Origin: Methylocystis sp.
GTDB lineage: Bacteria; Pseudomonadota; Alphaproteobacteria; Rhizobiales; Beijerinckiaceae
Assembly: GCA_021731565.1 (NCBI GenBank)
Contig: JAKFXD010000011.1
Span: forward strand, 1 to 44,377
DNA: 44,377 bases
Direction of reading: 5' to 3'
Position 1 is the stretch's first letter, and each line of letters opens with the position of its first letter. The notes under the pieces were generated by a model. That model saw only the letters and a list, made by a program, of their open reading frames with translations, was not told the DNA's origin and ran no database searches. Positions 9,941 to 38,226 of this stretch are shown here, in pieces. The position numbers and the translations under genes are program-made.

Positions 9941-12652
9941 ATGGCTTCTCTCGATAGTTTCAACGCCGGTCAGGCGCTCGTCGTCGGCGACCGGTCCTAT
10001 CAATATTTCTCGCTCAAGGCGGCGCAGGAGAACGGGCTTCGAGACGTCTCCCGCCTGCCCTATTCGCTCAAAGTCGTTCTCGAAAATCTGCTGCGCAACG
10101 AAGACGGCCGTTCGGTCACCAGGGAGTCGATCGAAGACTTCGCCAATTGGCTCGACGAAAAAGGCAAGACCGAGCGCGAAATCGCCTTCAGGCCGGCGCG
10201 CGTGCTGATGCAGGATTTCACCGGCGTGCCGGCGGTCGTCGATCTCGCGGCGATGCGCGACGCCGTGGTCGCGCTCGGCGGGGATGCGCAGAAGATCAAT
10301 CCGCTGGTGCCGGTCGATCTCGTCATCGATCATTCGGTGATCGTCGACAGTTTCGGCACGCCGCTGTCGTTCGCCCGCAACGTCGAACTGGAATATGAGC
10401 GCAACGGCGAGCGCTATCGCTTCCTGAAATGGGGCCAGTCGGCCTTCGACAATTTCCGCGTCGTGCCGCCGGGCACCGGCATCTGCCATCAGGTCAATCT
10501 CGAATATCTCGGGCAGACCGTCTGGACGCGCGCCGAACAGATCGACGGCAAAACGGTCGAATACGCCTATCCCGACACGCTGGTCGGCACAGATTCGCAT
10601 ACGACCATGATCAACGGCCTCGCCGTTCTCGGCTGGGGCGTCGGCGGCATCGAGGCCGAAGCCGCGATGCTCGGCCAGCCGCTGTCGATGCTCGCCCCCG
10701 AAGTGATCGGCTTCAAGCTCACCGGCGCGCCGAAGGAGGGCGTGACCGCGACCGACCTTGTTCTGACCGTCACCCAGATGCTGCGCAAAAAAGGCGTGGT
10801 CGGAAAATTCGTGGAATTCTTCGGCGACGGCCTCGATCATCTGAGCCTCGCCGATCGCGCGACGATCGCCAATATGGCGCCTGAATATGGCGCGACCTGC
10901 GGCTTCTTCCCGATCGACCGGGAGACGCTCTCCTATCTGCACATGTCGGGGCGCAGCGACCAACGTATCGAGTTGATCGAGGCCTATGCCCGCGCGCAAG
11001 GCATGATGCGCGAGCCGGGGGCGCCTGATCCGGAATTCACCGATACGCTGAGCCTCGACCTCGCAGAAGTGACGCCCTCGCTCGCCGGTCCGAAACGCCC
11101 GGAGAGCCGCGCGTCGCTTTCGGAAGTCGGCTCGGCCTTCCTCGGCGCGCTCGCCACCGAATATAAGAAAGAGGACGGGGTCGGGCCGCGCTACAAGGTC
11201 GAGGACGAGAGTTTCGATCTCGGCCATGGCGACGTGGTCATCGCCGCCATCACCTCCTGCACCAACACCTCCAACCCCAGCGTGCTGATCGGCGCCGGGC
11301 TGCTGGCCCGCAACGCCGTGGCCCGCGGATTGATGACGAAGCCCTGGGTGAAGACCTCGCTCGCCCCTGGCAGTCAGGTCGTCGCGCAATATCTCGCGAA
11401 GTCCGGGCTGCAGAAATATCTCGACGATCTCGGCTTCAATCTCGTCGGCTTCGGCTGCACGACCTGCATCGGCAATTCCGGGCCGTTGCCGCCGGCGATT
11501 TCGAAAACCATCAATGCGCATGACCTCGTCGCGGCGTCGGTTTTGTCGGGAAATCGCAATTTCGAGGGGCGCGTCAATCCTGACGTCCAGGCGAATTACC
11601 TCGCCTCGCCGCCGCTCGTCGTCGCCTATGCGCTCGCGGGAACCATCGCCATCGACCTGACGAAAGAGCCGCTCGGACATGACGGCGCCGGCGCGCCGGT
11701 CTATCTGCGCGACATCTGGCCGGCGAACGCCGAGATCGCCGCCTTCGTGCGCGATCAGGTGACGCGCGATCTGTTTCGTCAAACCTACGCCAACGTCTTT
11801 TCAGGCGACGAACACTGGCGCGCGGTCGAGGCGCCAAGCAGCGAGACTTACGGGTGGGACGATCAGTCCACCTATGTGCGCGATCCGCCCTATTTCGTTG
11901 GACTTGAGCGCGAGCCCAAACCGGTCGAGGACATCGTCGGCGCGCGCATCCTCGCGCTCTTTGGCGATAAGATCACCACCGATCACATCTCGCCCGCCGG
12001 TTCGATCAAGGCGGCGTCGCCCGCCGGCAAATGGCTGATCGAACATGACGTCCTGCCCGCCGACTTCAATCAATACGGCACGCGGCGCGGCAATCATGAA
12101 GTGATGATGCGCGGGACTTTCGCCAATATCCGCATCAAGAATCACATCATGCGCGACGAGAGCGGGCAAACGCCGGAAGGCGGATTGACCAGGCATTATC
12201 CGGGCGGCGAGATCATGTCGATCTATGACGCCGCCATGCGTTACGGCGCCGAGGGCGCGCCGCTTGTCGTTTTCGCCGGCGCCGAATATGGCAATGGCTC
12301 GTCGCGCGATTGGGCCGCGAAGGGCGCCATGCTGCTTGGCGTTCGCGCCGTGATCGCCAAGAGTTTCGAGCGCATCCACCGGTCCAATCTGGTCGGCATG
12401 GGGGTGCTGCCGCTCACCTTCGCGGAAGGAACCGGCTGGGATACGCTTGGCCTCAAGGGCGACGAGACGGTGACGATACTCGGACTGCGCGAAGGACTAG
12501 CCCCGCGCAAGACCTTGGTCGCTTCGATTGCTTTTCCGGATGGGTCCACTACCTCCGCGCCGCTGCTGGCGCGCATCGATACGCTCGACGAGTTAGAATA
12601 CTTCAAAAACGGCGGCATTCTTCCTTACGTGTTGCGACAACTCGCCCCTTAA
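9941..12652 (+). CDS. acnA: Aconitate hydratase A
   Basis: A 903-residue monomeric aconitase of the AcnA/IRP1 type that interconverts citrate and isocitrate in the TCA cycle with a [4Fe-4S] cluster. Cluster cysteines are visible in SCTNTSNP and in GCTTCIGNSGPL. Substrate-site motifs include GTDSHTTMINGLAVLGWGVG, DHISPAGSI and GNGSSRDWAAKG in the swivel domain. Length and domain order match the family. AAGGA precedes the ATG at 9941. It appears to be a stand-alone gene; the next gene is a small secreted protein in an unrelated class. Confidence 0.97.
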   Translation: MASLDSFNAGQALVVGDRSYQYFSLKAAQENGLRDVSRLPYSLKVVLENLLRNEDGRSVTRESIEDFANWLDEKGKTEREIAFRPARVLMQDFTGVPAVVDLAAMRDAVVALGGDAQKINPLVPVDLVIDHSVIVDSFGTPLSFARNVELEYERNGERYRFLKWGQSAFDNFRVVPPGTGICHQVNLEYLGQTVWTRAEQIDGKTVEYAYPDTLVGTDSHTTMINGLAVLGWGVGGIEAEAAMLGQPLSMLAPEVIGFKLTGAPKEGVTATDLVLTVTQMLRKKGVVGKFVEFFGDGLDHLSLADRATIANMAPEYGATCGFFPIDRETLSYLHMSGRSDQRIELIEAYARAQGMMREPGAPDPEFTDTLSLDLAEVTPSLAGPKRPESRASLSEVGSAFLGALATEYKKEDGVGPRYKVEDESFDLGHGDVVIAAITSCTNTSNPSVLIGAGLLARNAVARGLMTKPWVKTSLAPGSQVVAQYLAKSGLQKYLDDLGFNLVGFGCTTCIGNSGPLPPAISKTINAHDLVAASVLSGNRNFEGRVNPDVQANYLASPPLVVAYALAGTIAIDLTKEPLGHDGAGAPVYLRDIWPANAEIAAFVRDQVTRDLFRQTYANVFSGDEHWRAVEAPSSETYGWDDQSTYVRDPPYFVGLEREPKPVEDIVGARILALFGDKITTDHISPAGSIKAASPAGKWLIEHDVLPADFNQYGTRRGNHEVMMRGTFANIRIKNHIMRDESGQTPEGGLTRHYPGGEIMSIYDAAMRYGAEGAPLVVFAGAEYGNGSSRDWAAKGAMLLGVRAVIAKSFERIHRSNLVGMGVLPLTFAEGTGWDTLGLKGDETVTILGLREGLAPRKTLVASIAFPDGSTTSAPLLARIDTLDELEYFKNGGILPYVLRQLAP

Positions 12653-12802
12653 TTCTCACGAAAAAAACGATTGACTTGCTCATTGACCTCGGACAGCGTG
12701 ATTGAGCTTTGCGTTGCATTCGGGCCGTTGCGGCTGGAATGCGTTCGGCGCAGCGCTTTACAAAAACAAAAAGTCACGACGCGAAGAAGAGGAAATCTGC
12801 AT

Positions 12803-13084
12803 ATGAACAAATACGCCCTTACGGCGGCCGCCGCCCTGTTCCTTGCGGCGACGGCGCCGTCGTTCGCTTTCGACGCCGCCGTCGGTCAGCGCGCGCCGAG
12901 CCAGGCGACGCGCGTCAGCTGCGACACGCATGCCGAGGACGATCAGGCTATGTGCGCCAGCAAGTGCGAGGACGCCTATCTCAAGGACCAGCAGGGCTGG
13001 ACGGCGGACATGAGCAAGATCAAGGCCGCCAAGAAGTCTTGCGACGAGAAATGCGGCTGCCCGCAGAACTCAAGCAACCTGTAA
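12803..13084 (+). CDS. Small secreted twin-CX3C cysteine protein (paralogue 1)
   Basis: The protein has 93 residues, with a signal peptide (MNKYALTAAAALFLAATAPS, cleavage near residue 22). The mature part has six cysteines: C40 in CDTH, then C51-x3-C55, a 24-residue spacer, and C80-x3-C84-x-C86 followed by PQN. The spacer is charged and helical in character (EDAYLKDQQGW). Two CX3C motifs on helices suggest a disulfide-linked helical hairpin; metal binding through the C/H residues is an alternative. The gene at 13402 encodes a paralogue with identical cysteine spacing in the twin motif. AGAGGAAA precedes the ATG. I know no named family with this pattern in bacteria; function unknown. Confidence 0.85.
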   Translation: MNKYALTAAAALFLAATAPSFAFDAAVGQRAPSQATRVSCDTHAEDDQAMCASKCEDAYLKDQQGWTADMSKIKAAKKSCDEKCGCPQNSSNL

Positions 13085-13401
13085 AAAATCGCTTCGATCT
13101 GAACCCAAGGAGCGCGCGAGCCATCGCGCGCTCCATTTGGGCCGCGCCGGCGGGTCAGCGAGACGCCGGCGCCGATTTCGTGTAAGGAACAGGAAATAAA
13201 AGATATTTTCCCCGACGTCGCCGTCCCGTGGCGCAGCGGCGCGACCTCTCGCGCAAGCGACGCGCAATTGACATGTACGGCCACTTACGACATCGTCCCG
13301 CCGCTCGTTGCGTTATGTGAGGCCGTTGCTGTTACAAGGCGGGAGGGGTCGAACGCAGGCGCAGTCTAGACGCCCGAAGGGCAAGTTAAGGAAACGACCA
13401 A
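13085..13401. other. Intergenic region between the two paralogues
   Basis: These 317 nt contain no convincing gene. They hold a GC-rich hairpin at 13109-13134 just after the first paralogue and a TTGACA hexamer at 13268-13273, which could be a -35 element, although the -10 match 17 nt downstream is poor. The region suggests that the second paralogue has its own promoter and a leader of around 100 nt. Confidence 0.4.
13109..13134 (+). terminator. GC-rich hairpin after paralogue 1
   Basis: A perfect 11-bp stem (GGAGCGCGCGA / TCGCGCGCTCC) with loop GCCA begins 24 nt after the stop codon. A short outer extension (CCCAA / TTGGG) can also pair. No T-run follows, so this may be a weak terminator or an mRNA-stabilising hairpin. 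Confidence 0.5.
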
Positions 13402-13638
13402 ATGATGAAATTCGCCATTATGACGGCGGCTCTCCTTGTCGCCGGCATGATCAGCCCGGCGTTCGCGGATTGCGACGTCCACAAAGCCGACGAAGACAAG
13501 CAAGCCAAATGCGCTGAAAAATGCGACGACGAGTATCTCTCCCGTAAGATGAATTACGGCGCCAATCAAGCGGAGGTCATCGCCAATAAGAAGGCCTGTG
13601 ACGCCGCCTGCGGCTGCCCGCAGAACACGAAGGAATAA
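13402..13638 (+). CDS. Small secreted twin-CX3C cysteine protein (paralogue 2)
   Basis: The protein has 78 residues, with a signal peptide (MMKFAIMTAALLVAGMISPA, cleavage near AFA-D). The cysteines are C24 (CDVH), C37-x3-C41, a 24-residue spacer, and C66-x3-C70-x-C72 followed by PQN. This matches the upstream paralogue residue for residue in spacing from the first CX3C onward. Other shared positions are the YL after the first CX3C, KK before the second, and the CGCPQN end. AAGGAAACGACC precedes the ATG pair. It ends just before a strong intrinsic terminator. Likely periplasmic; function unknown. Confidence 0.85.
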   Translation: MMKFAIMTAALLVAGMISPAFADCDVHKADEDKQAKCAEKCDDEYLSRKMNYGANQAEVIANKKACDAACGCPQNTKE

Positions 13639-13672: not shown

Positions 13673-13706
13673 CGCGGCGCGCATTCGTTGCGCGCCGCGC
13701 CTTTTT
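13673..13706 (+). terminator. Rho-independent terminator
   Basis: A perfect 11-bp stem (CGCGGCGCGCA / TGCGCGCCGCG) with loop TTCGT is followed by CCTTTTT. It lies 35 nt after the stop of the second cysteine-rich gene, directly before the 3' end of the convergent gene. Confidence 0.88.
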
Positions 13707-13707
13707 G

Positions 13708-14190
13708 TCACTCCGTTGTATAGACGTTGCCGTCCGGGCCTTTCCAGCCGCTGCCGGATTCATAAAATCGATATTCCTCGTCGAACTGAACCGTCGATCC
13801 GGGCGCGATATATTGCTTGCCGGGGGGATCGGCGCTGCGCGGCGCAGTCACATAATGATTGCTCGGCGAACAGCCTTCGGGAAATTTTCGAGCCTCGTCA
13901 GGCTTGCACTCAAGATTGGCGCCTTCCGGAAATTCGACCCGGGCATTGAAGAAAATCTCATAGCCCTTTTCTCCGGTGGCATGCATCTCGAGACGCTCGG
14001 CCATGGTCTGCTTGAATTCGCCGATCTTGAACGGCTTGTCGAAGCGCTGCTTCAGCAAGTTCTCGAAAATCTTCCTTGCATGCGCTTCGGTCGGATCGCA
14101 CCCCCCGAAAATGCAAAAAGCATTTGCCGGAATCGCCGAAAGCGACGCCAGCAACGCCGCAACGACAAGTTTGATGAAAGCGCCACGCAT
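13708..14190 (-). CDS. Secreted hypothetical protein
   Basis: A 160-residue protein with a clear signal peptide (MRGAFIKLVVAALLASLSAI, cleavage after ANA at residue 24). The mature chain begins with a CIFGGC motif and has two further cysteines (LECKPDE and EGCSP), so two disulfides are possible. An aromatic C-terminal segment (FDEEYRFYESGSGWKG) closes it. I recognise no family. A strong ribosome-binding site (GGAGGG) sits seven bases before the ATG. It is monocistronic as far as can be seen and convergent with the cysteine-rich gene at 13402. Confidence 0.8.
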   Translation of the reverse strand: MRGAFIKLVVAALLASLSAIPANAFCIFGGCDPTEAHARKIFENLLKQRFDKPFKIGEFKQTMAERLEMHATGEKGYEIFFNARVEFPEGANLECKPDEARKFPEGCSPSNHYVTAPRSADPPGKQYIAPGSTVQFDEEYRFYESGSGWKGPDGNVYTTE

Positions 14191-14396: not shown

Positions 14397-15806
14397 TTAA
14401 CGCCCTTCGGGCGTCATCGGGTTGCTCCAGAGATCCTTGACCTGCTCGAAATGCAGCGCGGGATCATAGCCCTCCGCCGTCAGGCCGAGCCAGTCCGAAG
14501 ACAGCCGTCCCAGCGAAGAAAGCACGGCGTAGGAGGCGACGACGCGGTCGCGCTGCGCCAGGATGAGTCCAAGGCGCGCATTGAGCAGCTCCTGCTGGGC
14601 ATTCAGGATTTCGAGCGTGGTTCGCTGGCCGGCCTTGGCTTCTTCCCGCACGCCATAGAGCGCGCGCTCGGCGGCGGCGATCTGGATTTGCGCCGCGGCG
14701 ATCTGGGTTTTCGCCGCCTGCAGCGCGCCCCAATAGGCGCGCACCAGCGAGAGAACTTCGGCGCGGGCGACATCGGCGCTGAACCGGCGCTGGCCGGCGG
14801 TCTCCTTGGCTTGCCGCACGCGGGAGGACGTCAGGCCACCCTCGTAAATCGGCACGTTGAGACGCCCGCCGACGCTGGCCCCGATGTTGCGGTTGCCGAC
14901 GCCGACGGTGTCGGTCTGCGTGAAGACGTCGCCGACGATCGACAATTTGGGCATGAAGTCCGCTTCGAGCGCCTTGATGTCGAGATCGGCGGCGTCGGCG
15001 TCGTGCTGCGCGGCAAGAATGAGGGGATTTTCGGCTTGCGCGATACGCTCCGCATCTTCGCGCGACTTCGGCAGCAGCCGGTCGATCGGCGCGCCGGCCG
15101 ACAGTTTCGACGGCTCGACGCCGACGATTTTGCGATAGACGCCTATGCTGGCGTCGAGCGCCGCACGCGCCGCGCTCGCGAGAGACTTTCCGCCGGCGAG
15201 CCGCGCCTCGGCCTGGGCGATGTCGGTGAGCGTGATCTGTCCGTAGTCATAGCGCTCGCGCGTCTGGCGCAATTGCTCCTTGAGGACGGCGACATTGCTG
15301 TTCTGAAGTTTGAGGGTCGCGGTGTCGCGCAGCACGTCCATATAGGCGGCGACGGCGTCGAATAAGACGCGCTGCTCGGTCAGGCGCAAACGCTCGCGTC
15401 CGGCGAAGACGCTGGACTCCGCGGCGCGGGTTTCGCTTTGCGTCTTGAACCCGTCGAAGATCGGCTGCTCGATGGTCAAAGCGCCGGAGCGAGGCATGCT
15501 GCCGCCGTTCTGGATGCTCTTCGTGCGAGCTCTAAGCGCGGGATCGTCGAGATCGACGTCGCGCTGTTGCGTGATGTAGCGGTTCCGCTGCACGCCGATG
15601 TAGCCGTCGGCGGAAACGCGCGGCCGCATGCCGGCCTGCGCCTGCGGAACGCCTTCGTCGATGGCGCGCAGTTCGGCTCTGCCGGCGTTGAGCTGCGGAT
15701 TGGCGTTATAGGCGCGGCGCATCGCGCCCGTCAGAGTTTCCGCGCGCGCCGTCGCTCCCGCTGCGAGGAGGCAGATCGTGACCGAGGCGACGCCGCGCAG
15801 GATCAC
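14397..15806 (-). CDS. TolC-family outer membrane efflux protein
   Basis: A 469-residue outer-membrane factor with a signal peptide (cleavage near ARA-ETL). It has the duplicated TolC helical repeats, seen as ETLTGAMRRAYNANPQLNAG in repeat one and ENPLILAAQHDADAADLDI in repeat two. Family hallmarks include QPIFDGFKTQSETRAAE and NVPIYEGGLTSSRVRQAKE. TolC trimers form the trans-periplasmic exit duct. Its sequence is nearer the type I secretion TolC group than CzcC. However, it starts three bases after the stop of the czcA-like gene on the same strand, so it most likely serves that metal pump. It may also serve other systems. Confidence 0.9.
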   Translation of the reverse strand: MILRGVASVTICLLAAGATARAETLTGAMRRAYNANPQLNAGRAELRAIDEGVPQAQAGMRPRVSADGYIGVQRNRYITQQRDVDLDDPALRARTKSIQNGGSMPRSGALTIEQPIFDGFKTQSETRAAESSVFAGRERLRLTEQRVLFDAVAAYMDVLRDTATLKLQNSNVAVLKEQLRQTRERYDYGQITLTDIAQAEARLAGGKSLASAARAALDASIGVYRKIVGVEPSKLSAGAPIDRLLPKSREDAERIAQAENPLILAAQHDADAADLDIKALEADFMPKLSIVGDVFTQTDTVGVGNRNIGASVGGRLNVPIYEGGLTSSRVRQAKETAGQRRFSADVARAEVLSLVRAYWGALQAAKTQIAAAQIQIAAAERALYGVREEAKAGQRTTLEILNAQQELLNARLGLILAQRDRVVASYAVLSSLGRLSSDWLGLTAEGYDPALHFEQVKDLWSNPMTPEGR

Positions 15807-15809
15807 CGG

Positions 15810-18800
15810 TCAGCCTCCGCTTTGTGGCAGGGAAGCTGACTCCGGCGAACGACAGAAGAACGCATAGAGCGCCGGCAGCACGACAAGGGTGAGAAGCGTC
15901 GCGCTGATCAGGCCGCCGATGACCACCGTCGCGATCGGCTTTTGCACTTCCGCGCCGGTCCCGGTCGCAAGCGCCATCGGCAGGAAGCCGAGCGACGCGA
16001 CCAGAGCCGTCATCACCACCGGCCGCAGTCGCGTCATCGCGCCTTTGAAGATCGCCGGCAGCTCAGGCATGCCGCCTGCGATCAATTGCGAAATATAGGT
16101 GCGCATCACCAGGCCGTTGAGCACCGCGACGCCGGAGAGCGCGATAAAGCCGACGGCGGCCGAAACCGACATCGGCATCCCGCGCAGCCACAGCGCGGCG
16201 ACGCCGCCGGACAGCGCGAGCGGCACGGCGGTGAACACCAGCAGCGCGTCGCGCACCGAGCCGAGCGCGGAATAGAGCAGGAGAAAGATCAGGAAAAAGC
16301 AGACCGGCACGACGATCGTCAGGCGCGCGCGCGCCGCCTCGAGATTTTCGAACTGGCCGCCCCAGGCGATCCAGTAGCCGGGCGGCAATTTCACTTTTGA
16401 CTCGATCTTCGCGCGCGCCTCCTCGACCACCGAAGCGATGTCGCGCCCGCGCACATTCGCCGAGACCACCACCCGGCGATGACCGTTCTCGCGCGAAATC
16501 TGGTTCTGCCCGTCAACGATGGAGAATTTCGCCACCTGCTTGAGCAGCACGACCGGCGCACGGTCGGCGACCGCGGGAAGTGCGATGGGAATCGACTCCA
16601 GCGCCTGCGCGTCTTCCCGCAGATTGTCCTGCAGACGAACGACGATGGGGAAACGGCGGTCGCCCTCGAACACGACTCCCGCCCGCTGTCCGCCAATCGC
16701 CGCGCCGATCACATCCTGCACGGCGGCGACGCTGAGGCCAAGGCGGGCGATCGCGCGCTTGTCGACCGCGACGTCCAGGACCGGCAAGCCGCCGACCTGT
16801 TCGACCTTTACGTCGCTCGCGCCTTTGACCGATTTGAGAATGCCCGCGATCTGATTGGCGGCCTTCAACATGACATCGAAATCCTCGCCGAACACTTTCA
16901 CGGCGATGTCGCCGCGCACGCCGGCGAGCAGTTCGTTGAAGCGCAGCTGAATGGGCTGCGAGAATTCATAGACGTTGCCCGGCAGCTGCGCGAGCCGCTT
17001 TTGCATTTTCTCAATGAGCGCCGACTTGTCGAGACCCGGATCGGGCCATTCCTTCCGCGGTTTCAACATAATGAAAGTATCGGTCAGGTTCGGCGGCATC
17101 GGATCTGTCGCGATTTCCGCCGTGCCTGTCTTCGAGAAGACATAGTCGACCTCGGGGAACCCCCGCAGCGCGCTCTCGACCTCGAATTGCATCCCCTGCG
17201 CCTGGGTCAGCGACGCGCTCGGAATTCGATTCGCCTGCATGGCGAGGTTCTGCTCATCGAGAGTCGGAACGAATTCTTCGCCGAGCGTCAGATAGAGCAG
17301 CGCCGCAAGGACGAAAGCGCCGGCGCCGATCGCTATGGGCTTGAACGGCGCAGCCATCGCCCATTCCAGGATCGGCGCATAGGCGCGTTTCAGCGCGCTG
17401 ACGAACGCATTTTCAGATTCGCGCACGCGTCCCGAAAGCGCGATCGCGATCATCGCCGGAAAGAAGGTCAGCGAAAGAACGAATTCGCAGGCAAGCGCCA
17501 TGATGACGGTCATCGCCATCGGATGGAACATTTTCCCTTCGACCCCGGAAAAGGTCAGGATCGGCACATAGACGAGAATGATGATCGCCTGTCCGTAGAC
17601 GGTCGGCCGCCGCATTTCTACCGCCGAGTCGATGACTGTCGTCAGCCGCTCCTCGAGCGTCAGCGCGCGGCCCAAGGCGTTCTGACGCTGCGACAGCCGG
17701 CGCAGGCAGTTCTCGGTGACGATGATCGCGCCGTCGGCGATCAATCCGAAATCGAGCGCGCCGAGACTCATCAGATTGGCGCTGATCTTGCCGGCATACA
17801 TGCCGACGCCGAGCAGGAGCATGGTCAACGGTATGACCATCGCCGTCACCAGCGCCGCGCGGAAATTGTCGAGCATGACAAAGAGCACGAGAATGACGAG
17901 CGCGGCTCCCTCGACGAGATTCAACGCGACCGTCTTGATGGTGGCGTTGACGAGAATCGTGCGATTCAAAATCGTGCGCACTTCGACGCCCGGCGGCAGA
18001 ATTCGGCGGATCTCCTTCATCCTCGCATCGACGGCGCTCGACACTTCGCGGCTGTTGGCGCCGATCAGCATCAACGCGGTGCCGATCACCACCTCTTCGC
18101 CGTTCATGCTGGCGCTGCCCACCCGCAACTCGCGCCCGACGCCGACCTCCGCAATGTCCTCGACCCGCACCGGCGTGCCGCCGCGCGTCGACACGACGAC
18201 CTTGGCGATATCGTCGATCGATTCCAGTCGACCGGAGCTGCGGACGACGAGTCCTTCGCCATTCCGCTCGACATAACCGGCGCCGCGGCTGATGTTGTTG
18301 CGTTCGATAATGCCGGCGAGATCGGCGAAAGAGAGCCCGAGCGCGAAGATTTTCGCAGGGTCGGGCTGCACATGATATTCCTTGACAAAGCCGCCGAGCG
18401 AATCGACGCCGGCGACGCCCGGCACGGTGCGCAACAACGGCCGGATGATCCAATCCTGCACGGTTCGCAGATAGGCGGTCATTTCGACCAAATTGCGCAG
18501 TCTCTGGCCTTCGGGCGTCAGATAATCGCCATTGCTCTGCCAGCCCGGCTTTCCGTCCGGCGCCGGCTCGTCGCCGCCTCTCGGCGCATAATTGACCGAC
18601 CACATGTAGATTTCGGACAGGCCGGTCGCGACGGGGCCCATATGCGAATCGACGCCGGGCGGAAAATTCTCCCTGGCGCGCATCAGCCGTTCGGCGACCT
18701 GCTGGCGCGCGAAATAAATGTCGACGCCGTCGGCGAATACGGCCGTCACCTGGCCGAAGCCGTTGCGCGAGAGCGAGCGGGTATATTCCAGTCCGGGTAT

Positions 18801-19025
18801 TCCCGCGATAGCGTTCTCGATCGGATAGGTGACCTGCTTTTCGATCTCGAAGGCGGAAAGCGCGGGCGCGAAGGCGTTGATCTGCACCTGATTGTTGGTG
18901 ATGTCGGGAACCGCGTCGATCGGCAGTCGCATCAGCGACCAGACGCCGAGCGGCACGGTGAGCGCCGTCAGCAAGACGACGAGCCAACGGCTGCGGACCG
19001 AGAGGGCGATGAGATTCTTGATCAT
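15810..19025 (-). CDS. czcA: Heavy-metal efflux RND transporter, CzcA type
   Basis: A 1071-residue inner-membrane RND pump driven by the proton gradient. The TM4 signature DFGLIADGAIIVTEN matches the HME pattern DFGxIxDGxxxxxEN, which points to divalent ions (Co, Zn, Cd, Ni) rather than Cu/Ag pumps of CusA type. Other hallmarks are PIDAVPDITNNQVQI at the N-terminus, TYPIENAIAGIPGL, and the paired large periplasmic loops. I chose the ATG at 19025 (MIKNLIALSVRSRWLV), where the first membrane helix starts. It lies 88 nt downstream of the adaptor gene and 3 nt upstream of the outer-membrane gene. No metal-responsive regulator is adjacent, so the metal is inferred from the signature only. Confidence 0.93.
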   Translation of the reverse strand: MIKNLIALSVRSRWLVVLLTALTVPLGVWSLMRLPIDAVPDITNNQVQINAFAPALSAFEIEKQVTYPIENAIAGIPGLEYTRSLSRNGFGQVTAVFADGVDIYFARQQVAERLMRARENFPPGVDSHMGPVATGLSEIYMWSVNYAPRGGDEPAPDGKPGWQSNGDYLTPEGQRLRNLVEMTAYLRTVQDWIIRPLLRTVPGVAGVDSLGGFVKEYHVQPDPAKIFALGLSFADLAGIIERNNISRGAGYVERNGEGLVVRSSGRLESIDDIAKVVVSTRGGTPVRVEDIAEVGVGRELRVGSASMNGEEVVIGTALMLIGANSREVSSAVDARMKEIRRILPPGVEVRTILNRTILVNATIKTVALNLVEGAALVILVLFVMLDNFRAALVTAMVIPLTMLLLGVGMYAGKISANLMSLGALDFGLIADGAIIVTENCLRRLSQRQNALGRALTLEERLTTVIDSAVEMRRPTVYGQAIIILVYVPILTFSGVEGKMFHPMAMTVIMALACEFVLSLTFFPAMIAIALSGRVRESENAFVSALKRAYAPILEWAMAAPFKPIAIGAGAFVLAALLYLTLGEEFVPTLDEQNLAMQANRIPSASLTQAQGMQFEVESALRGFPEVDYVFSKTGTAEIATDPMPPNLTDTFIMLKPRKEWPDPGLDKSALIEKMQKRLAQLPGNVYEFSQPIQLRFNELLAGVRGDIAVKVFGEDFDVMLKAANQIAGILKSVKGASDVKVEQVGGLPVLDVAVDKRAIARLGLSVAAVQDVIGAAIGGQRAGVVFEGDRRFPIVVRLQDNLREDAQALESIPIALPAVADRAPVVLLKQVAKFSIVDGQNQISRENGHRRVVVSANVRGRDIASVVEEARAKIESKVKLPPGYWIAWGGQFENLEAARARLTIVVPVCFFLIFLLLYSALGSVRDALLVFTAVPLALSGGVAALWLRGMPMSVSAAVGFIALSGVAVLNGLVMRTYISQLIAGGMPELPAIFKGAMTRLRPVVMTALVASLGFLPMALATGTGAEVQKPIATVVIGGLISATLLTLVVLPALYAFFCRSPESASLPQSGG

Positions 19026-19113
19026 CGACGACCGCCGGCGTTCGATGCGCCGCGCGCGGCGCATGGCGCGAGCGCCGGCCAGAGCGTCGAGCAAGCGAAG
19101 CCGTCGGCGCGCA

Positions 19114-20313
19114 TCATTCCTCCGGAATGCTCTGCTTGCCGAGCTCCGCCTTCAACAGAAAGACGTTGGAGACGGCGATCTCTTCGCCTGGCGTCAAACC
19201 GGAGACGACTTCGACCGAACCGTCGTCGCCCCGCCCCAGCTCGACTTCGCGCTTGGCGAATCCGTCGGCCGTGCGAACGAAGACGTTCGGCTTGCCGTCG
19301 ATGATCATCACCGCCGAGCGCGGAACCTCAACCTTCACCCGAGCTTGCTTGAGGGAGATTTCCGCTTCGAGAAGGCTGCCGGGCCGTAGCGCGAAATCCG
19401 GATTGGCGAAGCGCGCCAGAACTTGCCCCGAGCGCGTCTCCCGCGTGATCATCGCGTTGACGTAAGTGATCTTGCCTTCAAATCCGCGGCCTTCGGCGTT
19501 TTGCAGCCGAACCTCCTGACCCTCGCGCAACAGGCCGAGATCGGCGGCGGGCACCGCGAGTTCGACTTCGACCACCGAGAGATCGGAAATGACGTAGAGT
19601 TCCTTCGCCTGACCCTCGCCCCCGACCGGCTGGCCGACGCTGACCAGACGCTCGATGACGCGCCCGGAGATCGGGGCGCGAATCTCCTTGCGGCGAAGAT
19701 CGGCGATCGGCTGGGACGGCAGGGCGGCGATTTCCTGCTCGCTCATGTCGAGCGCGGCGAGTTTCTGCCGCGCGAGATCGAGCTTGACTTTCGCTTCCAT
19801 GAAGACCGCCTTGGCTTTCAGGAACAGCTGTTCGGCGGTGATCTTCTTTTCGAACAGTCCTTTTTCGCGCTGAAAGAGCACGTTCTGAAGTTCGAAATTC
19901 GCCAGCGCGGCGAGATATTCGCTCTTCGCCTCCGCCACTTCCCGCGAGTCGATGATCGCGATGGTTTCGCCGCGCGCGACATTGTCGCCAAGCCGCTTGC
20001 GCAGTTCTTCGACGACGCCCGCGACCTTCGCGGCGACCCGCGCGAGCCTGTCGGGATCGGGCTTGACCGCGCCGGGCGCGGTGAGCTGACGCGCAATGTC
20101 GCCCGGGCCGACCGCCGCCACCGAGATTTTCGACGTTTCGATCTGAGCCGGAGAAAGGCGGACTTCCCCTTCCGCGGGCGCCGGCTCGGTCGCCTCGCTT
20201 TGTCGATCGGGCGCGATCCGAACCCAGATCGCGTTGAAGACCGACGGCAGCGCCGCGCCGATCGCAAGGCTCGCGAGGAGCGCGAGCGCGAGAACGGACC
20301 GTTTACGGATCAT
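19114..20313 (-). CDS. czcB: RND efflux periplasmic adaptor, CzcB type
   Basis: A 399-residue membrane fusion protein with a single N-terminal membrane anchor (ALALLASLAIGAALP). It has barrel-sandwich halves (VAAKVAGVVEELRKRLGDNV and EIRAPISGRVIERLVSVGQPV), a helical hairpin between them, and a C-terminal beta domain (GLTPGEEIAVSNVFLLKAEL). It links the inner-membrane pump to the outer-membrane channel. I chose the ATG at 20313 (MIRKRSVLALALL); the open frame further upstream lacks similarity. There is no histidine-rich N-terminus of the kind seen in some CzcB proteins. It is the first gene of the efflux operon. Confidence 0.9.
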   Translation of the reverse strand: MIRKRSVLALALLASLAIGAALPSVFNAIWVRIAPDRQSEATEPAPAEGEVRLSPAQIETSKISVAAVGPGDIARQLTAPGAVKPDPDRLARVAAKVAGVVEELRKRLGDNVARGETIAIIDSREVAEAKSEYLAALANFELQNVLFQREKGLFEKKITAEQLFLKAKAVFMEAKVKLDLARQKLAALDMSEQEIAALPSQPIADLRRKEIRAPISGRVIERLVSVGQPVGGEGQAKELYVISDLSVVEVELAVPAADLGLLREGQEVRLQNAEGRGFEGKITYVNAMITRETRSGQVLARFANPDFALRPGSLLEAEISLKQARVKVEVPRSAVMIIDGKPNVFVRTADGFAKREVELGRGDDGSVEVVSGLTPGEEIAVSNVFLLKAELGKQSIPEE

Positions 20314-20603
20314 GGTCGACGTGAATCGGCTCCCTGGCGAATAATCTTCATGGGGTAGCATTGGCGCGCCGCTTGAGCTATTGGCCGGCGCGGCGAATAT
20401 GGGGGATATCGCGCGTCCGGCGTTCTTTCCTTAGAGGAGTTGCCGCGCGCGGTCCATGCGAGCGCTCGCGGCTCGTTTGCGCATAGCAAGGTTTTTAAAA
20501 AGGAAAACACGGCCAAAACGCCGGGCTTCGCAAGCGCTTTTACGTGACGGTTCGGCGACAGCGGACAGGCCCGAATCGCCTTCGCTTTCCGGGCGCGGAC
20601 GTA
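20314..20603. other. Gene-free region upstream of the czc operon
   Basis: These 290 nt separate the 5' end of czcB from the 3' end of rarA, both on the minus strand. They should contain the czc promoter. I see no gene, no convincing -35/-10 pair, and no inverted repeat that would suggest a MerR- or CsoR-type operator. Confidence 0.5.
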
Positions 20604-25073: not shown

Positions 25074-25147
25074 GCGGGTGTAGCTCAATGGTAGAGCAGC
25101 AGCCTTCCAAGCTGAATACGAGGGTTCGATTCCCTTCACCCGCTCCA
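25074..25147 (+). tRNA. tRNA-Gly (anticodon UCC)
   Basis: The cloverleaf is complete. The acceptor stem GCGGGTG pairs with CACCCGC, the D-arm is GCTC...GAGC, and the anticodon loop CTTCCAA carries TCC at 25106-25108. The T-arm contains GGTTCGATTCC, followed by discriminator T and an encoded CCA. It reads GGA and, by wobble, other Gly codons. The anticodon stem has one G-A mismatch at its top. Confidence 0.97.
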
Positions 25148-38136: not shown

Positions 38137-38226
38137 GGAGGGGTGGCCGAGTGGTTGAAGGCGCACGCCTGGAAAGTGTGTATGCGGGAAACCGTATCGC
38201 GGGTTCGAATCCCGCCCCCTCCGCCA
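38137..38226 (+). tRNA. tRNA-Ser (anticodon GGA)
   Basis: A 90-nt class II tRNA. The acceptor GGAGGGG pairs with CCCCTCC, the D-arm is GCCGAGTGGTTGAAGGC, and the anticodon loop CTGGAAA carries GGA at 38171-38173. A long variable arm follows, then the T-arm GCGGGTTCGAATCCCGC, discriminator G and encoded CCA. Confidence 0.97.

Follow-up and report, generated by a model that had tools for sequence, protein, structure and literature searches.

What are the two short, cysteine-rich proteins encoded side by side at this Methylocystis sp. locus, how do they fold, and what might they do? Within the window, the 44,377-nucleotide stretch analyzed here, gene A and gene B each encode a protein with six cysteines (C1 to C6), at positions 40, 51, 55, 80, 84, and 86 in A and 24, 37, 41, 66, 70, and 72 in B. 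Common to both is the pattern CX3C-x24-CX3C-x-C-PQN, with one further cysteine N-terminal of it. Alignment of A with B covers 55 residues (A residues 37-91) at 47% identity (E 2.5e-10), which shows them to be paralogs. Each N-terminus, judged by eye, is a hydrophobic Sec-like signal peptide with SFA or AFA as its last three residues, and inspection by eye found neither a lipobox nor a twin arginine in the N-termini. The mature proteins have a pI of 5.1 and a GRAVY of -0.82 (A) and a pI of 5.0 and a GRAVY of -1.11 (B). Across the six-frame ORFs of the window, CX3C-x20-28-CX3C-x-C matches twice, in A and B alone, against a mean of 0.02 when residues are shuffled within each ORF (200 rounds). The first-pass annotation had described two exported paralogs of 78-93 residues with six cysteines and x24 spacing, a description that our analysis reproduces at exactly the same coordinates (Table 1). 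Against 239 background pieces, some taken from doubtful ORFs, the codon usage of A ranks in the top 18% and that of B in the top 38%; it was rejected as a sign of high expression and does not indicate that expression is exceptional. The parts of PMC3615186 consulted hold nothing usable on expression of genes of this family.

Table 1. Features of the A/B locus, with positions in the window
Feature	Position	Strand	Description
acnA (aconitase)	9941..12652	+	immediately precedes A in 22 of the 27 loci compared
Conserved upstream element of A	12671..12699	+	TTGAC-N18-CAGCGT, 132 nt before start codon
Gene A	12803..13084	+	exported 93-aa protein, C-x10-CX3C-x24-CX3C-x-C-PQN
Predicted helical hairpin of A	12941..13054	+	residues 47-84, helices 47-63 and 70-84 (AlphaFold2)
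Hairpin after A, terminator-like	13104..13141	+	z -6.1; T run poor at this locus, T-rich in certain aligned orthologs
Conserved upstream element of B	13268..13297	+	TTGAC-N18-CATCGTC, 134 nt before start codon
Gene B	13402..13638	+	78-aa exported paralog, C-x12-CX3C-x24-CX3C-x-C-PQN
Predicted helical hairpin of B	13498..13611	+	residues 33-70, helices 33-49 and 56-70 (AlphaFold2)
Terminator-like hairpin after B	13673..13699	+	with T run
160-aa exported-looking protein	13708..14190	-	convergent to B; no Pfam or NCBIfam match
TolC, CusA/CzcA-type RND, and CzcB-type adaptor genes	14397-20361	-	convergent to A/B, across convergent hairpins

A and B belong to a real, conserved family that is restricted, in the genomes sampled, to related methanotroph genera. 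A single-protein query against 199 genomes of the host's family (E <= 0.01) matched 20, one of them (G180) through a false frame; the match L024 was rejected as a member, being a YHS-like frame by eye. The profile search of this sample places the family in 19 of 199 genomes and 3 of 43 genera, namely Methylocystis, Methylosinus, and a third genus, g40. Plasmid matches place the host in Methylocystis, which bears out the alphaproteobacterial origin named in the first-pass annotation, and a 100% identical plasmid stretch marks G146, one of the Methylosinus genomes, as M. trichosporium OB3b. Full searches of each genus recover it in 37 of 39 genomes of Methylocystis, all 10 of Methylosinus, and 1 of the 15 of g40. 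It is missing from two Methylocystis genomes, G590 (73% complete) and G602 (81% complete), and present in all 30 with completeness of 90% or more and contamination of 5% or less. The order-, class-, and phylum-level samples, each a subset of a larger group, yielded matches in 5 of 397 genomes (two Methylocystis and three weak matches, L036-L038, rejected as devoid of the cysteine pattern), 1 of 385 (the host genome), and 2 of 398 (both Methylocystis), respectively. Thus, at none of the levels sampled, from family to phylum, does a confident member lie outside the three genera. This distribution, regular in Methylocystis and Methylosinus and otherwise limited to one genome of a third pMMO-bearing genus, points to something specific that these methanotrophs require outside the cytoplasm. 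One viral match (L121) was taken as chance, its alignment being confined to what by eye is a 541-aa terminase-like ORF. Methylocystis parvus OBBP carries a divergent copy, annotated as hypothetical, on its plasmid pMpar-2 (L068 8001-8246).

In Methylocystis loci that are long enough, acnA and A are followed by B, the convergent gene for the 160-aa protein, TolC, and the CusA/CzcA-type RND gene. Five of the 27 loci depart from the acnA-A order. One, L063, is a contig limited to B and the genes that follow it; the other four, L056, L065, L066, and L067, are solitary copies at other sites. The L056 protein is the same as that of a Methylosinus genome (L143), and the copies L100-L102 (two Methylosinus, one g40) also lie at other sites, with no TolC or RND match within about 5 kb on each side. 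Just downstream of two solitary copies, the frames L066 3961-5283 and L067 5271-6698 are, by eye, what we take to be purB. The gene for the 160-aa protein is syntenic in Methylocystis, and its product finds a 26% match over 143 aa near a family copy of Methylosinus trichosporium (L102 1924-2304).

The cysteine skeleton was followed through 94 loci, which gave 162 family-like ORFs and 75 distinct proteins, or 72 after removal of the three false ones (L036-L038). C1, C3, C4, and C6 are invariant in all 72. C2 and C5 are both present in 59 and both replaced by Ala in 13, and in none does one occur alone. The C2-x3-C3 and C4-x3-C5-x-C6 spacings are constant throughout, C1 and C2 are separated by x10, x12, or x14, and C3 and C4 by x24 in 64 proteins and by x26 or x27 in 8. 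The 13 four-cysteine proteins, relatives of B, form one side of a single branch (support 89/74), which indicates that the joint loss of C2 and C5 is one event on the tree; the chance that a lost cysteine pair is C2-C5 is 1 in 15 possible pairs. Five further distinct rows, found later, all carry six cysteines in the motif. No Met or His is invariant in the mature part of the family. After codon 22, the median dN/dS is 0.19 for gene A (55 pairs, 11 sequences), 0.096 for six-cysteine B (76 pairs kept, 13 sequences), and 0.091 for four-cysteine B (9 pairs kept, 5 sequences), with single pairs of the A and B sets spanning 0.00 to 0.42. These ratios indicate that A, B, and the four-cysteine variants are all under purifying selection.

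The same skeleton bears on a redox role, in which the CGC end would serve as an active dithiol/disulfide. Gly stands between C5 and C6 in 69 of the 72 proteins, C6 is invariant, and CGC forms the very C-terminus in the distant copies L022, L023, and L034 and in four copies found later, all of which such a role would accommodate. The 13 four-cysteine proteins, however, keep one cysteine of the CxC and are nevertheless constrained (median dN/dS ~0.09, 9 pairs), and we regard a redox function as very unlikely, the least probable of the readings weighed here.

AlphaFold2 models, computed with 46 sequences as input (B from alignment A4, A from A5), predict two helices with one CX3C on each in both proteins, at middling confidence. 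Ten-residue pLDDT blocks range from 64 to 77 in A (mean 58.5, signal peptide included) and from 77 to 85 in B (mean 69.5, signal peptide included). Counted along the DSSP string of B, C37 and C70 lie 12 and 14 residues from the turn-side helix ends, and C41 and C66 lie 8 and 10 residues from them; read from this string rather than from coordinates, the two members of each pair would lie level with each other across the hairpin. That C2 and C5 are lost together fits cross-helix pairing of these two residues. Helix register and joint loss together are consistent with disulfides C2-C5 and C3-C4, and a C1-C6 disulfide, assigned by elimination, would probably tie the ends. The twin-CX3C helical hairpin that the first-pass annotation had proposed is thus supported, with its two helices predicted at middling confidence and the disulfides between them in agreement with the pattern of cysteine loss. 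A helical hairpin locked by disulfides is the probable fold, and we hold it to be likelier than any function assigned to A and B. The natural four-cysteine variant makes this disulfide map testable.

Mitochondrial proteins and some peptides of plants and animals are known to form twin-CX3C hairpins; in the small Tims of mitochondria, 11-16 residues separate the CX3C motifs, a shorter stretch than in A and B. Among the titles and abstract openings of the open-access literature searched, we found no description of a twin-CX3C hairpin family in bacteria. A database match to a characterized family of a different fold, which the first-pass annotation had named as grounds for abandoning the hairpin, was looked for and none was significant: A, B, and the members scanned have no Pfam or NCBIfam match above the curated cut-off, PDB sequences give no significant match to the family, and Foldseek with the predicted structure gives none at E <= 0.001 (best 3.5). 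PepSY_2, DUF2116, and other weak profile matches were rejected, lying under the cut-offs where these are shown.

Small Tims are described as carrying twin CX3C motifs on a pair of helices that two disulfides connect (PMC3759932, PMC6010621). Like these proteins (zf-Tim10_DDP), A and B have one CX3C in each of two predicted antiparallel helices, and both groups belong to an oxidizing compartment, which for A and B would be the periplasm. Unlike small Tims, the A/B family has a Sec-like signal peptide, x24-27 between the motifs, two extra cysteines, and polar helices. Against zf-Tim10_DDP in Pfam, neither A nor B matches at E <= 10, and 1 of 26 members matches at E 0.035 (14.1 bits vs. a cut-off of 22.3) with a single CX3C aligned; with 26 members scanned, about one match to some family near this E value is expected by chance. 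Profile A2 against PDB sequences has Tim9 as its sole match at E <= 10 (E = 1), again with one CX3C aligned, and profile A4 and B alone have none at that threshold. Homology to small Tims was therefore rejected, both matches being sub-threshold, and because the data show no homology, convergence is the sober reading of the likeness. The 13 four-cysteine proteins find a parallel in Tim8 of the alga Ectocarpus, reported to have just one cysteine per motif (PMC3097184). Methylotrophic alphaproteobacteria have been proposed as a model of the mitochondrial ancestor (PMC4013037).

The shared hairpin plan, the two sub-threshold matches, and the one-cysteine motifs of algal Tim8 (PMC3097184) could be read as signs of a small-Tim-like chaperone, whose assembled hairpins would shield hydrophobic periplasmic clients such as pMMO or outer membrane proteins. 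Against this stand the single CX3C in each alignment, the silence of the A4 profile and of B alone against PDB sequences, and the short polar helices of very hydrophilic mature proteins (GRAVY -0.8 and -1.1). A chaperone role, one of the options raised in the first-pass annotation, is not favored, and we give this version of it a very small probability.

Plant alpha-hairpinins are described as having CX3C-xn-CX3C on a helix-loop-helix with Cys1-Cys4/Cys2-Cys3 pairing (PMC7191063, PMC11591084), with CX3C-x4-20-CX3C as the published criterion (PMC11591084). A and B resemble them in their signal peptide, short mature part, CX3C-xn-CX3C motif, and predicted helix-loop-helix, and differ in the x24-27 between the motifs, the flanking C1 and C6, the bacterial origin, and the acidic character of the family. 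Membership was rejected, the spacing being x24 in 64 of 72 proteins and x26-27 in the other 8, all beyond x4-20. A secreted bioactive peptide, antimicrobial or inhibitory, would share motif, fold, and pairing with these plant proteins (PMC7191063, PMC11591084), but the mature proteins are acidic (pI about 5), and the family is present in all 30 good Methylocystis genomes, under purifying selection and in synteny with acnA. Such a peptide seems highly improbable to us.

Copper supplies the main rival, since these bacteria also have Csp proteins, which hold Cu(I) by means of CXXXC helices. Csp3 of M. trichosporium is described as binding Cu(I) via CXXXC on single helices and between helices, the exported Csp1 and Csp2 as implicated in copper storage for methane oxidation, and Csp1 as a tetramer of four-helix bundles with 13 cysteines and a Tat signal (PMC5171941, PMC7558416). 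A and B share with Csp1 and Csp3 of Methylosinus the same bacteria and CXXXC cysteines on helices, and with Csp1 also export; they differ from Csp1 in having six cysteines, two main predicted helices, and a Sec-type signal. Membership in the Csp family fails on these counts, with two main helices against a four-helix bundle and no twin arginine. A periplasmic Cu(I) carrier or store would bind Cu(I) through reduced thiols, as Csp does with its CXXXC motifs, and feed or protect pMMO. Occurrence in the same lineages, co-occurrence with pMMO, the Cu(I) chemistry of Csp3 and the storage role of Csp1 and Csp2 (PMC5171941, PMC7558416), and the adjoining TolC, CusA/CzcA-type RND, and CzcB-type adaptor genes, of which TolC and RND are syntenic in long Methylocystis loci, would all suit it. 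However, a Sec-type rather than Tat signal means that export should be of an unfolded, oxidation-exposed chain, the cysteines number just six, with neither Met nor His invariant in the mature protein, both intra-helix CXXXC pairs are gone in the 13 B relatives without C2 and C5, and the solitary copies L100-L102 have no TolC or RND match in their ~5-kb flanks. By analogy with Csp, a Cu(I) thiolate carrier may be entertained, and we consider it unlikely.

PmoA (PF02461) occurs in 20 of the 199 genomes of the host's family, in the same three genera as the hairpin family. Both occur in 17 genomes and neither in 177; three genomes, all g40 (G126, G172, and G198), have PmoA without the hairpin family, and two, both Methylocystis (G057 and G164), have the hairpin family without a PmoA match. 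This co-occurrence is not independent evidence because the three genera are close kin. A true link to pMMO or copper, if there is one, would supply methane oxidation with a component that has been missing so far.

On balance, we think it likely, with some reservation, that A and B are periplasmic miniproteins of type II methanotrophs, each a hairpin locked by disulfides, and that they would act through a partner. Both would be exported via Sec into the oxidizing periplasm, and each is predicted to fold as two antiparallel helices with one CX3C apiece. Nested disulfides C2-C5 and C3-C4 would lock the hairpin, C1-C6 probably joining its ends, to give a rigid, acidic, soluble product. This hairpin may bind a hypothetical partner, by means other than reactive thiols, either in the periplasm itself or within the lumen of the intracytoplasmic membranes, the site of pMMO. 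A and B would be two versions of one tool, co-regulated. A bolder proposal, which we rate as improbable, is that a private hairpin system convergent with small Tims assembles or guards pMMO in the periplasm and intracytoplasmic-membrane lumen, its paralogs perhaps hetero-oligomerizing like Tim9/Tim10.

The control regions of A and B also resemble each other. Of the 72 rows, 50 have the pattern TTGAC-N17-19-CA[TG]C[GT]T upstream, at a distance from the start codon of 131-148 nt in 49 and of 165 nt in one. The other 22, which include every Methylosinus and g40 row of the 72, lack its strict form; by eye, that form is also absent from the 400 nt before pmoC. The element is among the best conserved blocks in the leader alignments (24 B leaders; 20 of 24 A leaders). 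Both copies are promoter-like, although their second half is unusual, and some 100 nt lie between each and its start codon. The first half is a good -35-like candidate, and the -10-like half departs from the usual sigma-70 form. A and B thus look co-regulated via this common element. The first-pass annotation had suggested that the two genes are used under different conditions; the same kind of element at similar distances argues against this, and the suggestion is not supported. Its separate termination signals were recovered, each gene having its own terminator-like hairpin (that of A with a poor T run), and a strong hairpin after each gene would fit separate transcripts. A general terminator scan gave 5 sites vs. 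2.9 expected, the hairpin at 13104-13141 not among them. RNA structure in the 5' leaders was unconvincing: of 11 and 8 predicted pairs, 1 and 2, respectively, show double changes.

With at most one mismatch, TTGAC-N18-CATCGTC has 42 sites in the host's own genome, against 2 when the pattern is reversed; the window contains 3, against 0.17 expected. All 19 other sites examined of the 42 fall within ORFs of 100 codons or more, unlike B's own, and a wider regulon is therefore unlikely even though the element is commoner than chance. The sole other exact site overlaps a response-regulator frame. Elsewhere in the window lie two tRNA genes, at 25074-25144 and 38137-38223.
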